Positions 31,074 to 40,805 of a stretch of DNA of 40,882 nucleotides are shown piece after piece. The translations under genes and the position numbers were made by a program. Source of the DNA: Bacillota bacterium (GTDB lineage: Bacteria > Bacillota > Clostridia > DSM-8532); assembly GCA_022702935.2 (NCBI GenBank), contig JAKIML020000102.1:1-40882 (forward strand), in the 5' to 3' direction. Numbering within the stretch: the first letter of the stretch is position 1; every line of letters begins with the position of its first letter. Below the pieces are notes generated by a model, which saw only the letters and a list, made by a program, of their open reading frames with translations, did no database searches and was not told where the DNA came from.

Positions 31074-33308
31074 TTATCCGATCTCCTTAAGCAGGTGATA
31101 GGCCGAAAGAACATTGCTGTGGGCCATAATCCGCTGACGCTCAATGGAATTTGTGAGGTCCTGACAGATCTTTTCCCTGTCAGCCCAAATCTGTTCCAAT
31201 TGCCCACAGACCCTGGGGCCGTCCAGACTGTCCAGAGTGCCTGCTGAGGGCTGCCCAATCTCTTTGAGGAAAGATTCTACCTTGGGCTCATAAACCAGGC
31301 CCAGCATGGGTACACATTGGCTTGCCGCATATATCAGGGAGTGAAGCCGCATACCCACCATGAGATGGAGCCGCCCTGTAAAGCCCAGCATGACCTCGGG
31401 ACGGTACATATGCTCAATGACCGAGGCGGGATGCTTCATATAGCCCATGATGGCCTTGGAAATCTCAAAGTCGCCCGGATACTGCATGGGCATGAAAACC
31501 GGATAAGCACCCAGGCACTCCACGCAGTGATCAGCCAGGCTGGCGATCTTTTCCAAATAGCCATTGCTGGACCACTTTCTTATGGAGAAGCCCACCAGGG
31601 GCTTGTCGGTGGGAATGCCTTCTCTTGCAATCAGCGCATCGATTTCCTCTTTTGGTGCCGCTTCCAATAGCACCGCCGGGTCGGAGGTGACATAGATCCT
31701 GGGTTTATGAATACCCAGAACCTTGACCTCGTTATAGGACTCGGAATCCCTGAGACTGATGGCATCGAGCTCATTGAGAATTTTGGCAGCATAGTCCCGG
31801 TTCACAGAGCGCTTGATGGGACCAATCCCGTTGGCAAAGAGCATGGTTTTGGCCCCCGACTTTTTGGCCAGTCTCAGCACCGTCAGATAATAAAGAATGG
31901 AACGGGTACTGGTGTTATCCTGAATCAGGCTGCCGCCGCCGGCCAAAAACAGACGGGTTTTCTTGAGCTTGCGGGATACCTTGAGAAGATTAAAGCGGTA
32001 GATGGAATCCACCCGATAGCTCTGCATGGTCTCTCTGGGGTTTTTGGAAAGCACCAGATAATTCAGGTCCGGGTCCAGCTTTCTGAAAGTTTCAAGGGTT
32101 GAGCTTAAGATGGCCTCGTCCCCGCTGTTCTTATAGCCGTAATAGCCCAGAATGGCGATATCGTAGATCTTGCCATCCTTTTTGACCGTCTTTTCGGTGC
32201 TGAGGATTTTATCGTAGATAGAGAGCTGGGTCTGGCACATATTCCGGATGGAGAACTCACGCTCGGCCTTTTCCTTAAGCTGGTTCCCCATTAGCAGCCG
32301 CTTTTCTTCGTCCAGGGACAGCTCGGTCAAATGGCTGCCCAGGCGCTTCCAGTCCCGGGGTTGTACCAGGTAGCCGTTGAACCCAGATTCAATGAGATCC
32401 CCCAAACCGCCCACATGGGTGCTGACGGTGGCCCGGGCAAAGCGCGCCCCTTCCAGAATAACATAGGGGAAGCTTTCGCTGATGGAGGTCAGCACATTGA
32501 TGTCAATGGTCTGAAAAAAGTCATAGGGCCTGTCCACCATGCCTGTAAAGTAGACATAGGACGAGATGCCCAGCTTTTCAGCAAATTGTTTGAGCTGGGG
32601 CATCATATCATCCCCCGGTCCGCTGATTAAAAAGCGGGCCCTGGGGTTGACCTTGACCACTTCGGCTGCCGCCCTCAGAAAGGTCTCATGATCCTTGACC
32701 GGATGGAGCCTGGCCATAATGCCGATGAGGACACAATCCAGAGGAAAGGGCACCTTAAAACGCTCAAAGAACGCTTCCCGGGTGCAGGGTGGGATCTCAT
32801 TATCGAACGGGATACCGTTATACACCGAATAGATGCGCTGTGGATTAAAGCCCCGGCTGATGAGCATTTCCTTAAAATTGTTGGAGACGCTTACATGGTA
32901 TTCAATGCGCCGAAGGGCAATGGCATTGATGACACCAAAAGAGAACCGCTTTAAAAGACTGTGCATATAGTCAAGGCGGTAGTCGCTGTGTACGGTGGTC
33001 ACAACGGGAATGCCTGTAATGCCCTTGATGATGGCCGCCATCATATTGGCCTTGGCGCCGTGGGAATGAATAATATCATACTTCCCTGATCTAACAAGCT
33101 CCAGGGTTCTTTTAAGATCCAGAATAATATTGCCGGTTCTGATAATGCGGGCATCGATGCCCATGGCCACCGCATCATTGTGGAAGGGGCCTTTTCTATA
33201 ACTGACAAGGGTTACCTCGATGGTTTTTCCCAGTTCCTTGATGAGCTGAAGAACATGGCTCTTGGCTCCGCCCTCATCTCCACCGCCGATTAGGTGTATT
33301 ACTTTCAT
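31074..33308 (-). CDS. csaB: Fusion of GT4 glycosyltransferase and CsaB polysaccharide pyruvyl transferase
   Basis: A 744-residue two-domain protein. Residues 1 to about 372 form a GT-B glycosyltransferase of family 4: N-terminal GGGDEGGAKSHVLQL, HSHGAKANMMAA, GIMARLHPVKDHETFL, and the SESFPYVILEGARFARA donor site (E278 and E286). A short charged linker (about 371-381) leads to a CsaB-type pyruvyl transferase: IAILGYYGYKNSGDEAIL, LFLAGGGSLIQDNTS, and the late GMRLHSLIYAAS. CsaB adds pyruvate ketals to the secondary wall polymer that anchors SLH proteins. The fusion would couple a sugar transfer and pyruvylation. AAAGGAAG precedes the ATG. It sits between the PHP phosphatase gene (21 bp) and tagA. 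Confidence 0.92.
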   Translation of the reverse strand: MKVIHLIGGGDEGGAKSHVLQLIKELGKTIEVTLVSYRKGPFHNDAVAMGIDARIIRTGNIILDLKRTLELVRSGKYDIIHSHGAKANMMAAIIKGITGIPVVTTVHSDYRLDYMHSLLKRFSFGVINAIALRRIEYHVSVSNNFKEMLISRGFNPQRIYSVYNGIPFDNEIPPCTREAFFERFKVPFPLDCVLIGIMARLHPVKDHETFLRAAAEVVKVNPRARFLISGPGDDMMPQLKQFAEKLGISSYVYFTGMVDRPYDFFQTIDINVLTSISESFPYVILEGARFARATVSTHVGGLGDLIESGFNGYLVQPRDWKRLGSHLTELSLDEEKRLLMGNQLKEKAEREFSIRNMCQTQLSIYDKILSTEKTVKKDGKIYDIAILGYYGYKNSGDEAILSSTLETFRKLDPDLNYLVLSKNPRETMQSYRVDSIYRFNLLKVSRKLKKTRLFLAGGGSLIQDNTSTRSILYYLTVLRLAKKSGAKTMLFANGIGPIKRSVNRDYAAKILNELDAISLRDSESYNEVKVLGIHKPRIYVTSDPAVLLEAAPKEEIDALIAREGIPTDKPLVGFSIRKWSSNGYLEKIASLADHCVECLGAYPVFMPMQYPGDFEISKAIMGYMKHPASVIEHMYRPEVMLGFTGRLHLMVGMRLHSLIYAASQCVPMLGLVYEPKVESFLKEIGQPSAGTLDSLDGPRVCGQLEQIWADREKICQDLTNSIERQRIMAHSNVLSAYHLLKEIG

Positions 33309-36068: not shown

Positions 36069-36809
36069 TTATGCTGGATGGGGCTGTTCCCCTTTAGAGA
36101 GCCTTGCCATAAATTCTTCCGAGGGCGGTTCCACCGAGGACAGCTTGTAGGGAAGGTTCAGGGCCTTCCATTTGTATTCGCCCATTTTATGAAAGGGAAG
36201 AAATTCGATGTTTTGTACATTGGACAGAGAAGCAGCCAATTCTTTAAATGCACTGACAGCCGCTTCGTCGTCGGTATAGCCCGGAACCACCACGTATCTG
36301 AGCCATACGGGAATGGACCTTTGCTTAAGGAGCCTTGCAAAGACCGGGGCCGGTATGTCGCTCCTGCCTGTCAGCACTCTATGCTTATGGGGCTTAGTAT
36401 GCTTTATGTCCAGGAGAACCAGATCGGTCACCTGTAAAAGCTGATCCAAAAGGGAGCTTTCCAGAAAAGTATAGTCCCCGGCTGTGTCCAGGCAGGTATG
36501 AATACCTGCATCCTTTAAGCCTCTGAAGAGCTCGGTCACAAAAGCGGCCTGCAGCAGCGGCTCACCGCCCGACACAGTGACGCCTCCCCCCGAAGGCATA
36601 AAATAGGGTTTGTAACGCAAAAGCCGTTCCAAAAGTGCGTCTACGGTCATCAAAGTGCCGCCGTCCTCCGGCCAGGTGTCGGGGTTATGACAATAAAGGC
36701 ATCGGAATCTGCAGCCCTGAAGAAAGACCACGGCGCGTATGCCGGGACCGTCATGGGTGCCCATGGATTCGATGGAATGAATCTTGCCCAAAAGACCAGT
36801 GCTGTTCAT
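36069..36809 (-). CDS. pflA: Pyruvate formate-lyase activating enzyme
   Basis: A 246-residue radical-SAM enzyme. The 4Fe-4S motif is CRFRCLYCHNPDTW (C33, C37, C40), preceded by GTHDGPGIRAVVFLQG, the usual PflA N-terminus, and followed by VTVSGGEPLLQ and LLDIKHT. It installs the glycyl radical on PflB. It starts 35 bp after the pflB stop, so both are expressed from the riboswitch-controlled promoter upstream of pflB. Confidence 0.96.
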   Translation of the reverse strand: MNSTGLLGKIHSIESMGTHDGPGIRAVVFLQGCRFRCLYCHNPDTWPEDGGTLMTVDALLERLLRYKPYFMPSGGGVTVSGGEPLLQAAFVTELFRGLKDAGIHTCLDTAGDYTFLESSLLDQLLQVTDLVLLDIKHTKPHKHRVLTGRSDIPAPVFARLLKQRSIPVWLRYVVVPGYTDDEAAVSAFKELAASLSNVQNIEFLPFHKMGEYKWKALNLPYKLSSVEPPSEEFMARLSKGEQPHPA

Positions 36810-36844
36810 GGGAAGCCTCCTTTGCCTTTTTCTTTACAATGGTG

Positions 36845-39079
36845 TTAAATAGCCCTGTGGAAGGTGCGGGAAATGACCTCCTCCTGCTGCTTTCGGGTCA
36901 GCCGGTTAAAATTCACCGCATAACCCGATACACGCACCGTCAACTGCGGATATTTTGAGGGGTTCTCCATGGCATCCACCAGCATCTCCCTGCTGAGCAC
37001 ATTGATATTGATGTGATGCCCGCCCTGAGCAAAATAGCCGTCCAGCATGGCCATGAAATTCTTAAGGCTGATATGCTCATTCATGCCCAGCGCGTTGGGG
37101 GTAAGGGAGAGGGTCAGACTGACCCCATCCTTGCAGGCTGAATAGGGGATTTTGGCCAGTGAATTCAATACGGCCAGGGCTCCCATAATATCACGGCCAT
37201 GCATGGGGTTGGCACCGGGAGCAAAGGGTTCTCCGGCCTTTCGGCCATCGGGCGTAGCCCCTGTTTTTTTGCCGTAAACCACGTTGGAGGTAATGGTGAG
37301 AATGGACAGGGTGTGCTCTGCATCCCGATAAGTCGGGTGCTTTTTAAGATCGGTGATAAAGCCCTTGACAAGCTCGGTGGCCATAGTGTCCACCCGATCA
37401 TCGTCGTTGCCAAACTGAGGGTATTCCCCCTCAATATCAAAGCCTACAATAAGCCCCTGCGCATTCCTTCTGGTCTTCACATAGGTATAGCGCATGGCGC
37501 TTAAGGAATCGGCCACCACGCTCAAGCCCGCAATGCCGAAGGCCATAAACCTGTGGACGAATGTATCGTGAAGAGCCATCATCAGCCGCTCATAGGCGTA
37601 CTTGTCATGCATGTAATGGATGATGTTCATGGTATTGACATAGAGGCCCGTCAGCCATTTCTGATAGGTTTTAAACCGAGTGAGAACCTTGTTGTAATCC
37701 AGATATTCATCGGGGTAGGGCTCCATGGGGGGCGCAACCTGTTCGCCCGTAAGCTCATCCCGTCCGCCGTTGAGGGCCAATAGAAGGAGCTTGGGCAGGT
37801 TGCAGCGGGCACCGAAGAACTGCATATCCTGCCCAAGCCGCATAGCCGATACACAGCAGGATATGCCATAATCGTCCCCGAAGAGAGGACGCATGAGATC
37901 ATCATTTTCATATTGAATGGCGCTAGTTGCCATGGAGATCCGGCCGCAGAAGGCCTTAAAGGCCTCGGGGAGCCGCACCGACCATAGAACGGTGAGATTG
38001 GGCTCGGGAGCAGGGCCCAGATTGATGAGGGTCTGCAAAAAGCGGTAAGCGGTTTTTGTCACCTTATGCCGCCCGTCTTCGCCCATACCGCCCAGGGCCT
38101 CGGTGATCCAAACCGGATCCCCGGCAAAGAGCTCGTTATATTCAGGGGTTCTCAGATGCCGAATGAGCCTGAGCTTGATAACCAACTGATCAATGAGCTC
38201 CTGGGCTTCCTCCTCGGTGATAAGGCCTGCACTGAGGTCCCGTTCGATATAGATGTCCAAAAAGGTGTTCAAACGGCCAATGGAATTGGCTGCGCCATTG
38301 GTCTCCTTAACCGCCCCCAGGAAGGCCAGATAGGTCCACTGAACAGCCTCAGGGGCATTTTCGGCAGGCCTTCTGAGATCAAAGCCATAGGCATCGCCAA
38401 GCCGGGCCAGCTCATCAAGGGCATGGATCTGCTCCCTGACCTCCTCACGCAGCCGTATGGTTTCCTCGTTCATATCCCGATCCAAAAGGGTTGCCAAGTC
38501 CTTTTCCTTTTCTGCCATGAGTCTGTTTATCCCATAAAGGGCCACTCTTCTGTAGTCACCGATAATTCTGCCCCTGCCATAGGCATCGGGCAGACCTGTA
38601 ATGACCCCGCAGCTTCGGGCTTTTTTCATCTCGGGGGTATAGGCGTCGAAAACACCGTCATTATGCGTTTTGCGATAGTGGGTGAAGGTCTCATCCAAAG
38701 CGGGGGCCAGGTGGTATCCATAGGCCTCGCAGGCCTTTCGGGCAAGTCGAATGCCCCCATAGGGATTGACCATTCTTTTTAAGGGCACATCGGTCTGGAG
38801 CCCTAAAATCACTTCGTTTTCAGGATCAATAAATCCAGGCTTGAAGCTTAGGATACCCGATACCGTCTGGGTGTCGATATCCAGTACGCCATGATGGGCC
38901 ATCTCCTCTTTTAAAAGCGCCTGACAGCGCTCCCACAGCCTTTGGGTTTTTGGAGAAGGTCCTGAGAGAAAGCTCCCGTCCCCGTCATAGGGGGTATAGT
39001 TTTTATTGATGAAATCCTTCACATCAATGGAATTGAGCCAATCACCTGGACGAAAAGCTTGTTCGGATTTGTTCGCCAT
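36845..39079 (-). CDS. pflB: Formate C-acetyltransferase (pyruvate formate-lyase)
   Basis: A 744-residue glycyl-radical enzyme: pyruvate + CoA to acetyl-CoA + formate. The active-site cysteine pair is C408/C409 in [11 protein letters not shown], and the glycyl-radical loop near the end is [11 protein letters not shown] (G719). Length and both motifs are complete. A strong AAAGGAGG precedes the ATG. The leader of about 240 nt carries a ZTP riboswitch and a terminator, so expression should rise when 10-formyl-tetrahydrofolate is short. This fits the enzyme's second role as formate source for one-carbon metabolism. The presence of pflB and pflA points to anaerobic fermentation. Confidence 0.97.
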
Positions 39080-39382: not shown

Positions 39383-39411
39383 TTGAAAGAAACCTTTAAT
39401 TATGATATTAT
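39383..39411 (+). promoter_or_regulatory. Promoter of the PP2C-like/LysM gene
   Basis: TTGAAA (39383-39388), a 17-bp spacer and TATTAT (39406-39411), divergent from the pflB promoter 28 bp away. The leader would be about 55 nt. Confidence 0.6.
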
Positions 39412-39473
39412 TGTTGAATAATATGCAATAATTTTATTTAGGGCATAAATCATGTCGAAAAGAGGAGAATCCA

Positions 39474-40805
39474 ATGAGTAGCGTGATCAAGGTAAATGCG
39501 AGCGTTTACTCCCGTATCGGATACGGCAGGACCAGCAACACCAGTTCCTTCTACATGAACGGAAAATTTACCTCCGAGCATCACATCGATAATGTGCAGG
39601 CATCCATGGAAAATCGGAGTTCCGAATATCTTTTCGCTATTGCTGACAATATGGACAGCGGTGACGAGCTGGATACGCAGGTATCCCTGTTAAAGGAAAT
39701 CAGCAGATTTCATGAGAAATTGTCAGTCAACGGCGGTGACATCCAATTCAAGACCAAAGAGTTGGAATCCCGTATCAACGATACAGAACGCTTAATTACA
39801 AGCTTTCTTGAGATGAATCGGGTTCCCGATACCGATCCGCGCTGGAATCTTGGATTTTCCGGGCTGCTCTTAGCCGAAGGAAAGTTTGTGGCCCTAACCG
39901 GAGGAAGCGGCCGTGCGTTTATGATGCGCGATGGCATGTTCAAACCTCTGGCCAATGAAACCACCCGGGCAAAGCGGGCCATTGATGCCCTCACCGACGC
40001 TTCGGAGCCCGGTGAACTGGATGAGGTGGATGTTCCAGGCGATGAAAAGACCGGAAATCTGATTGTTTCGGATATATATGACCTGGAGGAAGGGGATGCC
40101 TTTGTACTCGTCACCGAGGGCATTATGGAAGCCCTGGGTGAGGAGAAGATAGAGGATCTTCTGGCCCTTCGCAGTGACAGTTCCTTCATTGCCTACCGGC
40201 TGGTGGATGAGGCCATGAAAAGAAAGCACACCGGCGATTTAACGGCTCTGGTGGTGCAGGTGGAAAAAGTCATTGATGGACCCGGACCCAAGAGAAGCGC
40301 ATCCCGGATTCAGCCCCAGCAGAATATGAAGGACAGGGTGGAGAAGCTTAATAAAGCCCCAGCCGTCACCTATAAATACAACAGGCGCAACAGCAATAAA
40401 TACCAGGGTGTTGTATTTATAACCCTTGTTATATTAACGGTAGCCGTGCTCATAGGTATTCTGGTGCTGATCATCAGCTCACTGATGAACGCCGGCAAGA
40501 ATAATTACCCAACCACGAGCCCCACCACAACAGCCACGGCAACGCCGACGGCCACACCCCTTGAGAGTGAAGAGCCTACCGACGAGCCCACCGAAACCCC
40601 TGAACCTACGCCCACACCCACACCCGAGATCATTGAGCACAAGGTGAAGTCAGGGGAGAGCATCAGCGCTATCACCCGGAAATATTACGGTGATACATCC
40701 CTGGCCGATAAGCTGTGCAAGTACAATAATATCTCGGATCCCAACAAGATAAAGGTGGATCAGATTATCAAGATACCTCCTAAGGAAGTGCTGATGGAGC
40801 AATAA
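39474..40805 (+). CDS. PP2C-like (degenerate) phosphatase domain - membrane segment - LysM protein
   Basis: A 443-residue protein. Residues 1 to about 265 follow the PPM/PP2C outline: SRIGYGRTSNTSSFYMNG, LFAIADNMDSGDELD (D58), LTGGSGRAFMMRDG, FVLVTEGIMEAL and TGDLTALVVQVE. Several metal-site positions differ from active enzymes: NED becomes NTS, DG becomes DN, SDG becomes TEG. A basic stretch precedes one membrane helix (about 314-338, VVFITLVILTVAVLIGILVL). A Pro/Thr-rich spacer and a C-terminal LysM domain (EHKVKSGESISAITRKYYGD) follow, outside the cell. It may be a wall-sensing regulator with a non-catalytic phosphatase fold. GAGGAGAA precedes the ATG. Confidence 0.8.
   Translation: MSSVIKVNASVYSRIGYGRTSNTSSFYMNGKFTSEHHIDNVQASMENRSSEYLFAIADNMDSGDELDTQVSLLKEISRFHEKLSVNGGDIQFKTKELESRINDTERLITSFLEMNRVPDTDPRWNLGFSGLLLAEGKFVALTGGSGRAFMMRDGMFKPLANETTRAKRAIDALTDASEPGELDEVDVPGDEKTGNLIVSDIYDLEEGDAFVLVTEGIMEALGEEKIEDLLALRSDSSFIAYRLVDEAMKRKHTGDLTALVVQVEKVIDGPGPKRSASRIQPQQNMKDRVEKLNKAPAVTYKYNRRNSNKYQGVVFITLVILTVAVLIGILVLIISSLMNAGKNNYPTTSPTTTATATPTATPLESEEPTDEPTETPEPTPTPTPEIIEHKVKSGESISAITRKYYGDTSLADKLCKYNNISDPNKIKVDQIIKIPPKEVLMEQ

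Follow-up and report, generated by a model that had tools for sequence, protein, structure and literature searches.

The forward-strand gene at 39474..40805 of the window (the whole stretch of DNA analysed, 40,882 nucleotides, and the whole of contig C41 of a 3.17-Mb assembly) encodes a protein in which a degenerate PPM/PP2C-fold domain is joined, through a predicted transmembrane segment, to a LysM domain. We consider it fairly probable that this protein of anaerobic clostridia is a single-pass, wall-tethered membrane pseudophosphatase acting as a scaffold or sensor. Since most of its metal-binding residues are lost, it probably works by binding partners and not by removing phosphate.

Domain layout and fold

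The gene and its upstream region carry the following features, with the basis of each given in brackets:

39383..39411, + strand: sigma-A-like promoter, TTGAAA-17-TATTAT with TG before the -10 (conserved upstream in 23/23 regions)
39453..39467, + strand: conserved leader TGTCGAAAAGAGGAG with likely ribosome-binding site (conservation upstream of the start)
39474..40805, + strand: whole gene, PPM-like domain, transmembrane segment, linker and LysM (ORF, ATG start, 443 aa)
39474..40277, + strand: PPM/PP2C-fold domain, residues 1-268 (profile to PDB, predicted structure)
39543..39545, + strand: S24, replacing the Asp of NED (N22-T23-S24) (alignment)
39645..39650, + strand: D58-N59, Asp kept and the Gly of DG changed to Asn (alignment)
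39906..39908, + strand: S145, replacing the Asp of GDSR (alignment)
40116..40118, + strand: E215, replacing the Asp of SDG (T214-E215-G216) (alignment)
40233..40238, + strand: G254-D255, replacing DN, with Gly in the Asp slot and Asp in the Asn slot (alignments)
40353..40379, + strand: juxtamembrane motif KAPAVTYKY (pattern P-[AP]-x-[ST]-[YF]-K-[YF])
40407..40484, + strand: predicted transmembrane segment, about residues 312-337 (hydropathy, model helix, charge bias)
40485..40634, + strand: Thr/Pro-rich linker (translation; pLDDT below 50 over 344-382)
40638..40778, + strand: LysM domain (PF01476 match; block pLDDT 81-90 over 391-440)

Searched against Pfam at E up to 0.1, the full protein returns LysM (PF01476, residues 389-435) as the single family over its cut-off, with 36.7 bits against 20.9. 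Neither a kinase nor PASTA is among the four families returned, and the protein is thus no PASTA kinase by this measure. Nothing from PP2C exceeds its Pfam cut-off when this single sequence is used: SpoIIE (PF07228) scores 13.8 bits against 25, and in NCBIfam the Stp1/IreP/PrpC equivalog (NF033484) scores 18 bits against 230, which places the protein in neither family.

The PPM fold outline, which a first, sequence-only reading had called recognisable, becomes clear with a family profile. Built from 18 relatives (A1) and compared with the PDB, this profile matches PppA (6jkv) at E 6.5e-14, tPphA at about 1e-12 and PstP (1txo) at 1.1e-9. Structure prediction of the PPM domain from six sequences yielded a best model with mean pLDDT 69.9 and pTM 0.73, of moderate overall confidence, the other four models having mean pLDDT values of 50.7, 46.9, 45.3 and 39.5. 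Foldseek places PP2C phosphatases at the top of the matches to this model (E 4.1e-12), with TM-scores to the top PP2Cs of about 0.5-0.6 (query TM about 0.6) and rmsd of 7-9, while VIA-align superimposes it on PppA 6jkv over 210 aligned residues with Z 22.1 and rmsd 4.0. The overlay on PstP that had been suggested as a check gives similar values (1txo; Z 21.6, rmsd 4.2, 206 aligned). Profile and predicted structure together reveal that the N-terminal domain is a PPM domain with the fold of the PPM/PP2C superfamily.

The predicted transmembrane segment is hydrophobic, with a best 19-residue hydropathy mean of 3.31 starting at residue 316, and is covered by a helix at 308-342 in the full-length model. 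We note that the PPM part of that model is poor (mean pLDDT 54.8), and we used it for the transmembrane helix, linker and LysM only. Four K/R residues lie in the 15 residues on the N-terminal side of the segment and one in the 15 after it, a bias that fits a predicted topology with PPM in the cytosol and LysM outside. The anatomy put forward from the letters, a degenerate PPM domain followed by a membrane segment and LysM, is upheld by the LysM score, the predicted segment and the fold matches. The juxtamembrane pattern recurs in 24/28 rows tested and is a possible docking or modification site. The 3' end of the gene lies 77 bases from the contig end, and the downstream side falls outside the window.

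Metal-site residues in the protein and its relatives

The four core Asp positions, 24 (NED), 58 (DG), 215 (SDG) and 254 (DN) in window numbering, are occupied by S, D, E and G, respectively. Only one core metal Asp in four (D58) is therefore kept, and the residue set of an active PPM/PP2C enzyme is incomplete. Three motif changes had been described before: NED to NTS and SDG to TEG stand as described, and DG to DN holds for the Gly only, the Asp being retained. Alignment adds two further losses, those of the DN Asp (G254) and the GDSR Asp (S145). The S145 position is one that we take to be a third-metal ligand. The bacterial PP2C survey PMC12088040 places two Mn at the Asp residues of motifs 2, 8 and 11 and a third metal at motif 5; in one PP2C group this third site has Ser, and the survey regards the requirement for a third metal as unclear, so S145 alone is little proof of inactivity.

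Of 33 genomes searched in the order, 29 have a full-length PPM match (E below 1e-100). Among them is G004, whose copy (L011) is interrupted by an in-frame TAA within the PPM domain, which may be a true break or an assembly error. No full-length match is present in G024, which is 99% complete, or in G008, G010 and G017, which are 81-86% complete. Across the class, matches at E <= 1e-18 occur in 55/391 genomes, canonical phosphatases being among them; in the phylum sample, at the stricter E <= 1e-25, the one match in 398 is the window's own genome. Seven other matches to the full-length query in that genome all lie within query residues 286-426 (transmembrane segment, linker and start of LysM). 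We do not treat them as paralogues; L002, the one inspected, reads as a different protein.

A LysM model built from the family matches 36/37 rows (37 of the 40 clade rows were tabulated), the miss being L066, which runs off its contig; L043 is cut off inside LysM. As the model was built largely from these same rows, the fair test is given by the 11 independent rows, of which 10 match, L066 again being the miss. One independent row (L112) is over the Pfam cut-off for both PP2C (30.9 bits) and LysM (49.7 bits). The PPM-TM-LysM clade is present in several Clostridia families.

To place the metal-site changes on a phylogeny, we use a second tree, built without the metal-site columns, in which several forks and long branches are unsure. 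L069, L130 and L127 were dropped from this tree and from the counts for their long branches (L069 had attached to the family group by a branch of 3.02 in the first tree), and L016, L028 and L031 were added; the partial L070 and L071 are in neither tree, and G004 was left out for its in-frame stop. Ten canonical rows, assigned by us, serve as outgroup. Seventeen rows from g1 (11), g7 (4) and g3 (2), which are the genus of the window and two nearby genera, fall on one side of a branch whose support is 92/76 and not starred; the window protein is one of the 17.

Among these window-side rows, the NED Asp is kept in 0/17 (9 N, 5 S, 2 C, 1 A) and the DN Asp position is Gly in all 17, while position 58 is D in 16 and E in one. 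The SDG position varies, with D in 8/17, N in 4, Q in 2 and E, R and H in one each, the Glu occurring in the window protein only. The homologue from Thermoclostridium caenicola DSM 19027 (L040) has N, D, D and G at the four core positions. In the sister genera g2 (4), g4 (3) and g6 (3), all four Asp are present in 9/10 rows, the exception having Glu at DN. In the wider clade all four Asp are present in 14/40 rows, against 10/10 in the canonical outgroup, and the minimum numbers of Asp/not-Asp changes on the tree are 2, 3, 5 and 5 for the four core positions, from which we conclude that core Asp losses recur. The GDSR Asp is present in 1/40 LysM-clade rows against 10/10 canonical ones, and the Gly of DG shows the same counts; even the Asp-complete clade members are therefore unusual and may be weak enzymes.

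The window protein and its nearest relatives thus combine a PPM fold with a conserved loss of ligands, as expected of a pseudophosphatase. On the conservation of the altered residues in orthologues, raised earlier as a test, loss of the Asp is shared throughout at the NED and DN positions and is not shared throughout at SDG. The anticipated loss of catalysis likewise agrees with the contrast between the 17 window-side rows and the sister rows, and the PPM domain is probably catalytically inactive, given the ligand loss and a statement in PMC12002173 that the M1 and M2 metals are the minimum for all known PPM phosphatases. The same paper reports PHLPP2, with altered ligands, as inactive, and both TAB1 and PHLPP2 as able to bind one metal. 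Binding of one metal could similarly persist here, as D58 is kept and D255 is invariant in 27 rows of family f1.

Promoter, neighbours and selection

All 23 family-f1 upstream regions compared contain a promoter consensus in which TTGAA[A/T] and TATNAT are separated by 16-18 bases, with TG ahead of the -10, and shuffled upstream regions give 0.07 matches on average and at most 1. These related, non-independent regions come from the 27 f1 rows, with L057, L016, L028 and L031 outside the set. A generic promoter scan of the window finds 3 sites against an average of 2.6 in shuffles, near the shuffle level, and it is consequently conservation that makes the case for the promoter. The element suggests vegetative expression. 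A sporulation-specific role was considered and set aside, the conserved upstream element reading as an extended -10 sigma-A promoter instead. Downstream of it, a GTCGAAA leader core stands 20-22 bases before the start in 21/23 regions and is conserved beyond the likely ribosome-binding site. The full leader has one exact copy in the genome and 2 matches at up to 1 mismatch; a reversed control also has 2, so its rarity means little and its conservation is what counts.

No shared (clustered) same-strand gene lies directly beside the gene in the f1 layouts, which offers no operon partner. Small unclustered same-strand ORFs adjoin it in L047, L048, L050, L052, L058 and L061 and are possible ORF-caller artefacts. 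Flanking genes are mostly divergent or convergent, for example with an AMP-binding or pyruvate formate-lyase-like enzyme on the upstream side and, in L062, a phosphoglycerate mutase on the downstream side; neighbours in other families were judged mostly from translations, with Pfam searches for one in L064 and two in L068. The upstream neighbour differs between relatives. In the window, the stretch at 36069-39079 (- strand), divergent to the gene, encodes a glycyl-radical enzyme resembling pyruvate formate-lyase, together with a radical SAM protein that is probably the activase of this enzyme. Farther away, one ORF at 31074-33308 (- strand) combines Glycos_transf_1 and Glyco_transf_4 domains with a polysaccharide pyruvyl transferase domain.

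Elsewhere in the genome there is a canonical PrpC with NED, DGMGG, GDCR, TDG and DN intact (PP2C_2, 53.7 bits), adjoined on that other contig by a PASTA kinase (Pkinase 197.8 bits, PASTA in 3 stretches). The PPM-TM-LysM protein is therefore present in addition to this standard pair. A canonical PP2C with a transmembrane segment and no LysM match occurs in another Clostridia family (G040, L068 9490-13648, - strand), where it comes after an FHA protein (83 bits) and a kinase carrying bacterial Ig-like domains.

For the PPM domain, five window-side pairs give omega values of 0.050-0.121, and two Asp-complete pairs from g6 give 0.056 and 0.076; all are rough, coming from simple pairwise counting in which dS is often close to 1 or higher. 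In the four window-side pairs with values for both domains, the omega values of PPM and LysM, in that order, are 0.121/0.056, 0.072/0.062, 0.050/0.079 and 0.110/0.076 (L059-L060 yields no value and L046-L047 none for LysM). In the PPM domain, 40/268 positions are invariant in the 27 f1 rows. Positions 24 and 215 are invariant in the 10 sister rows; when the 268 positions are ranked by variability in the 17 window-side rows, they come 59th and 31st. A fold that is kept while two metal positions vary is what one would expect of a pseudoenzyme. In the same 17 rows G254 and N59 are invariant, and their fixation could reflect selected change and not mere release.

Alternative explanations, proposed role and known systems

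We reject decay of the gene, which we regard as highly improbable. The in-frame stop in G004 and the lack of a full-length match in the nearly complete G024 could be read that way, but the match persists in most genomes of the order (the interrupted copy included), the promoter is shared by every upstream region compared, and the low omega values indicate purifying selection. The lineage-wide pattern, omega and promoter together argue for a maintained gene. It is also improbable, though less so, that the domain remains an active phosphatase, perhaps slow or using another metal, whose metal centre has been rebuilt from D58, E215, D255 or other residues. Retention of D58 in nearly all window-side rows and the invariance of D255 would suit such a centre, as would the four Asp of the sister rows, from which we conclude that the ancestor was probably metal-binding. 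Asp at the SDG position in eight window-side rows counts against the pseudophosphatase reading. Against a rebuilt centre, however, the NED and DN Asp are both gone throughout the window-side rows, the GDSR Asp is gone, and Glu at 215 is peculiar to the window protein.

Somewhat less improbable, but still unlikely, is that the PPM domain serves as an inert or structural plug in the cytosol and that the LysM anchor is the working part, with no signal crossing the membrane. The absence of a shared same-strand neighbour in the f1 layouts and the free variation of two core catalytic positions are in keeping with a plug. However, the omega values of PPM and LysM are of similar magnitude in the four window-side pairs with both, and the invariant PPM positions likewise speak for constraint on the domain itself.

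We return to the wall-tethered pseudophosphatase as the preferred explanation. The gene would be expressed during vegetative growth, and the PPM domain would sit in the cytosol without hydrolysing phosphoproteins, binding instead a partner such as a phosphoprotein, a kinase or a wall-synthesis protein. Outside, LysM would hold the protein to peptidoglycan glycans, and the LysM-PPM pair could then anchor the cytosolic partner to the wall or report wall state to it. The protein would stand beside the PASTA-kinase/PrpC system as its non-catalytic counterpart and not serve as the phosphatase of that system. A more specific version, to which we give only tentative credence, is a wall receptor on a dead phosphatase, in which LysM reads peptidoglycan and phosphoproteins, or a partner from the PASTA-kinase/PrpC system, are caught in the metal-poor PPM pocket. 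If this receptor reading is true, the clade series from Asp-complete to Asp-poor would record a change from enzyme to receptor, and wall phospho-signalling, so far described in terms of PASTA kinases and PrpC-type phosphatases, would gain a non-enzymatic class of partner. Related genera differ in Asp completeness, and loss of catalysis and gain of binding can thus be compared between neighbours of similar sequence.

In the open-access literature, we found no report of a PPM phosphatase with LysM, nor of a PP2C or other phosphatase with LysM in Clostridia or Thermoclostridium; a search for LysM domain with PP2C and PASTA led, at title level, to vancomycin-intermediate S. aureus. By title, none of the matches listed concerns a bacterial PPM pseudophosphatase, the PPM pseudophosphatases described among them being eukaryotic. 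In PMC12599244 the word pseudophosphatase occurs in the reference list only. The main text of PMC12088040, as far as it was covered, contains neither 'LysM' nor 'inactive'; it details 8 of 119 domain types, and the rarer ones could include LysM.

Compared with known systems, the window protein shares its fold over about residues 2-265 with PppA, PstP, Stp1 and tPphA (VIA-align Z 20.5-22.1, rmsd 3.8-4.6) and is homologous, by profile only, to the PrpC of its own genome; it differs from these bacterial PPM phosphatases in lacking three of the four core Asp and the GDSR Asp. Like the eukaryotic pseudophosphatases TAB1 and PHLPP2, it combines a PPM fold with lost metal ligands, and TAB1 (2pop) aligns with the PPM model at Z 17.8 and rmsd 5.6 over 229 residues. 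In contrast to both, it belongs to a bacterial membrane and wall setting, with an unrelated domain context and another set of lost residues. PHLPP2, too, is described in PMC12002173 as descending from an Asp-complete, active ancestor.

Fusion of PP2C with LysM also occurs in L115 (G223), from another Clostridia family, which has the same domain order with two LysM (PP2C PF00481 62.9 bits, LysM 76.5 bits, both over cut-off). Unlike the window protein, L115 has all four Asp, DGMGG and GDSR intact and groups with the canonical PP2C outgroup, and the LysM fusion may therefore have arisen independently, more than once. The PP2C-PASTA proteins, found mainly in Chloroflexota, likewise join PP2C to a wall-associated domain; this domain is PASTA and not LysM, and the survey section of PMC12088040 that covers them does not mention lost metal ligands. 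Finally, PASTA kinases of the PrkC/PknB type follow the same single-pass plan of a cytosolic phospho-signalling domain, a transmembrane segment and an outside wall-binding domain, the window protein having a PPM-like domain in place of the kinase and LysM in place of PASTA. The role as a wall sensor or scaffold mirroring PASTA kinases, proposed when the gene was first read, is plausible.
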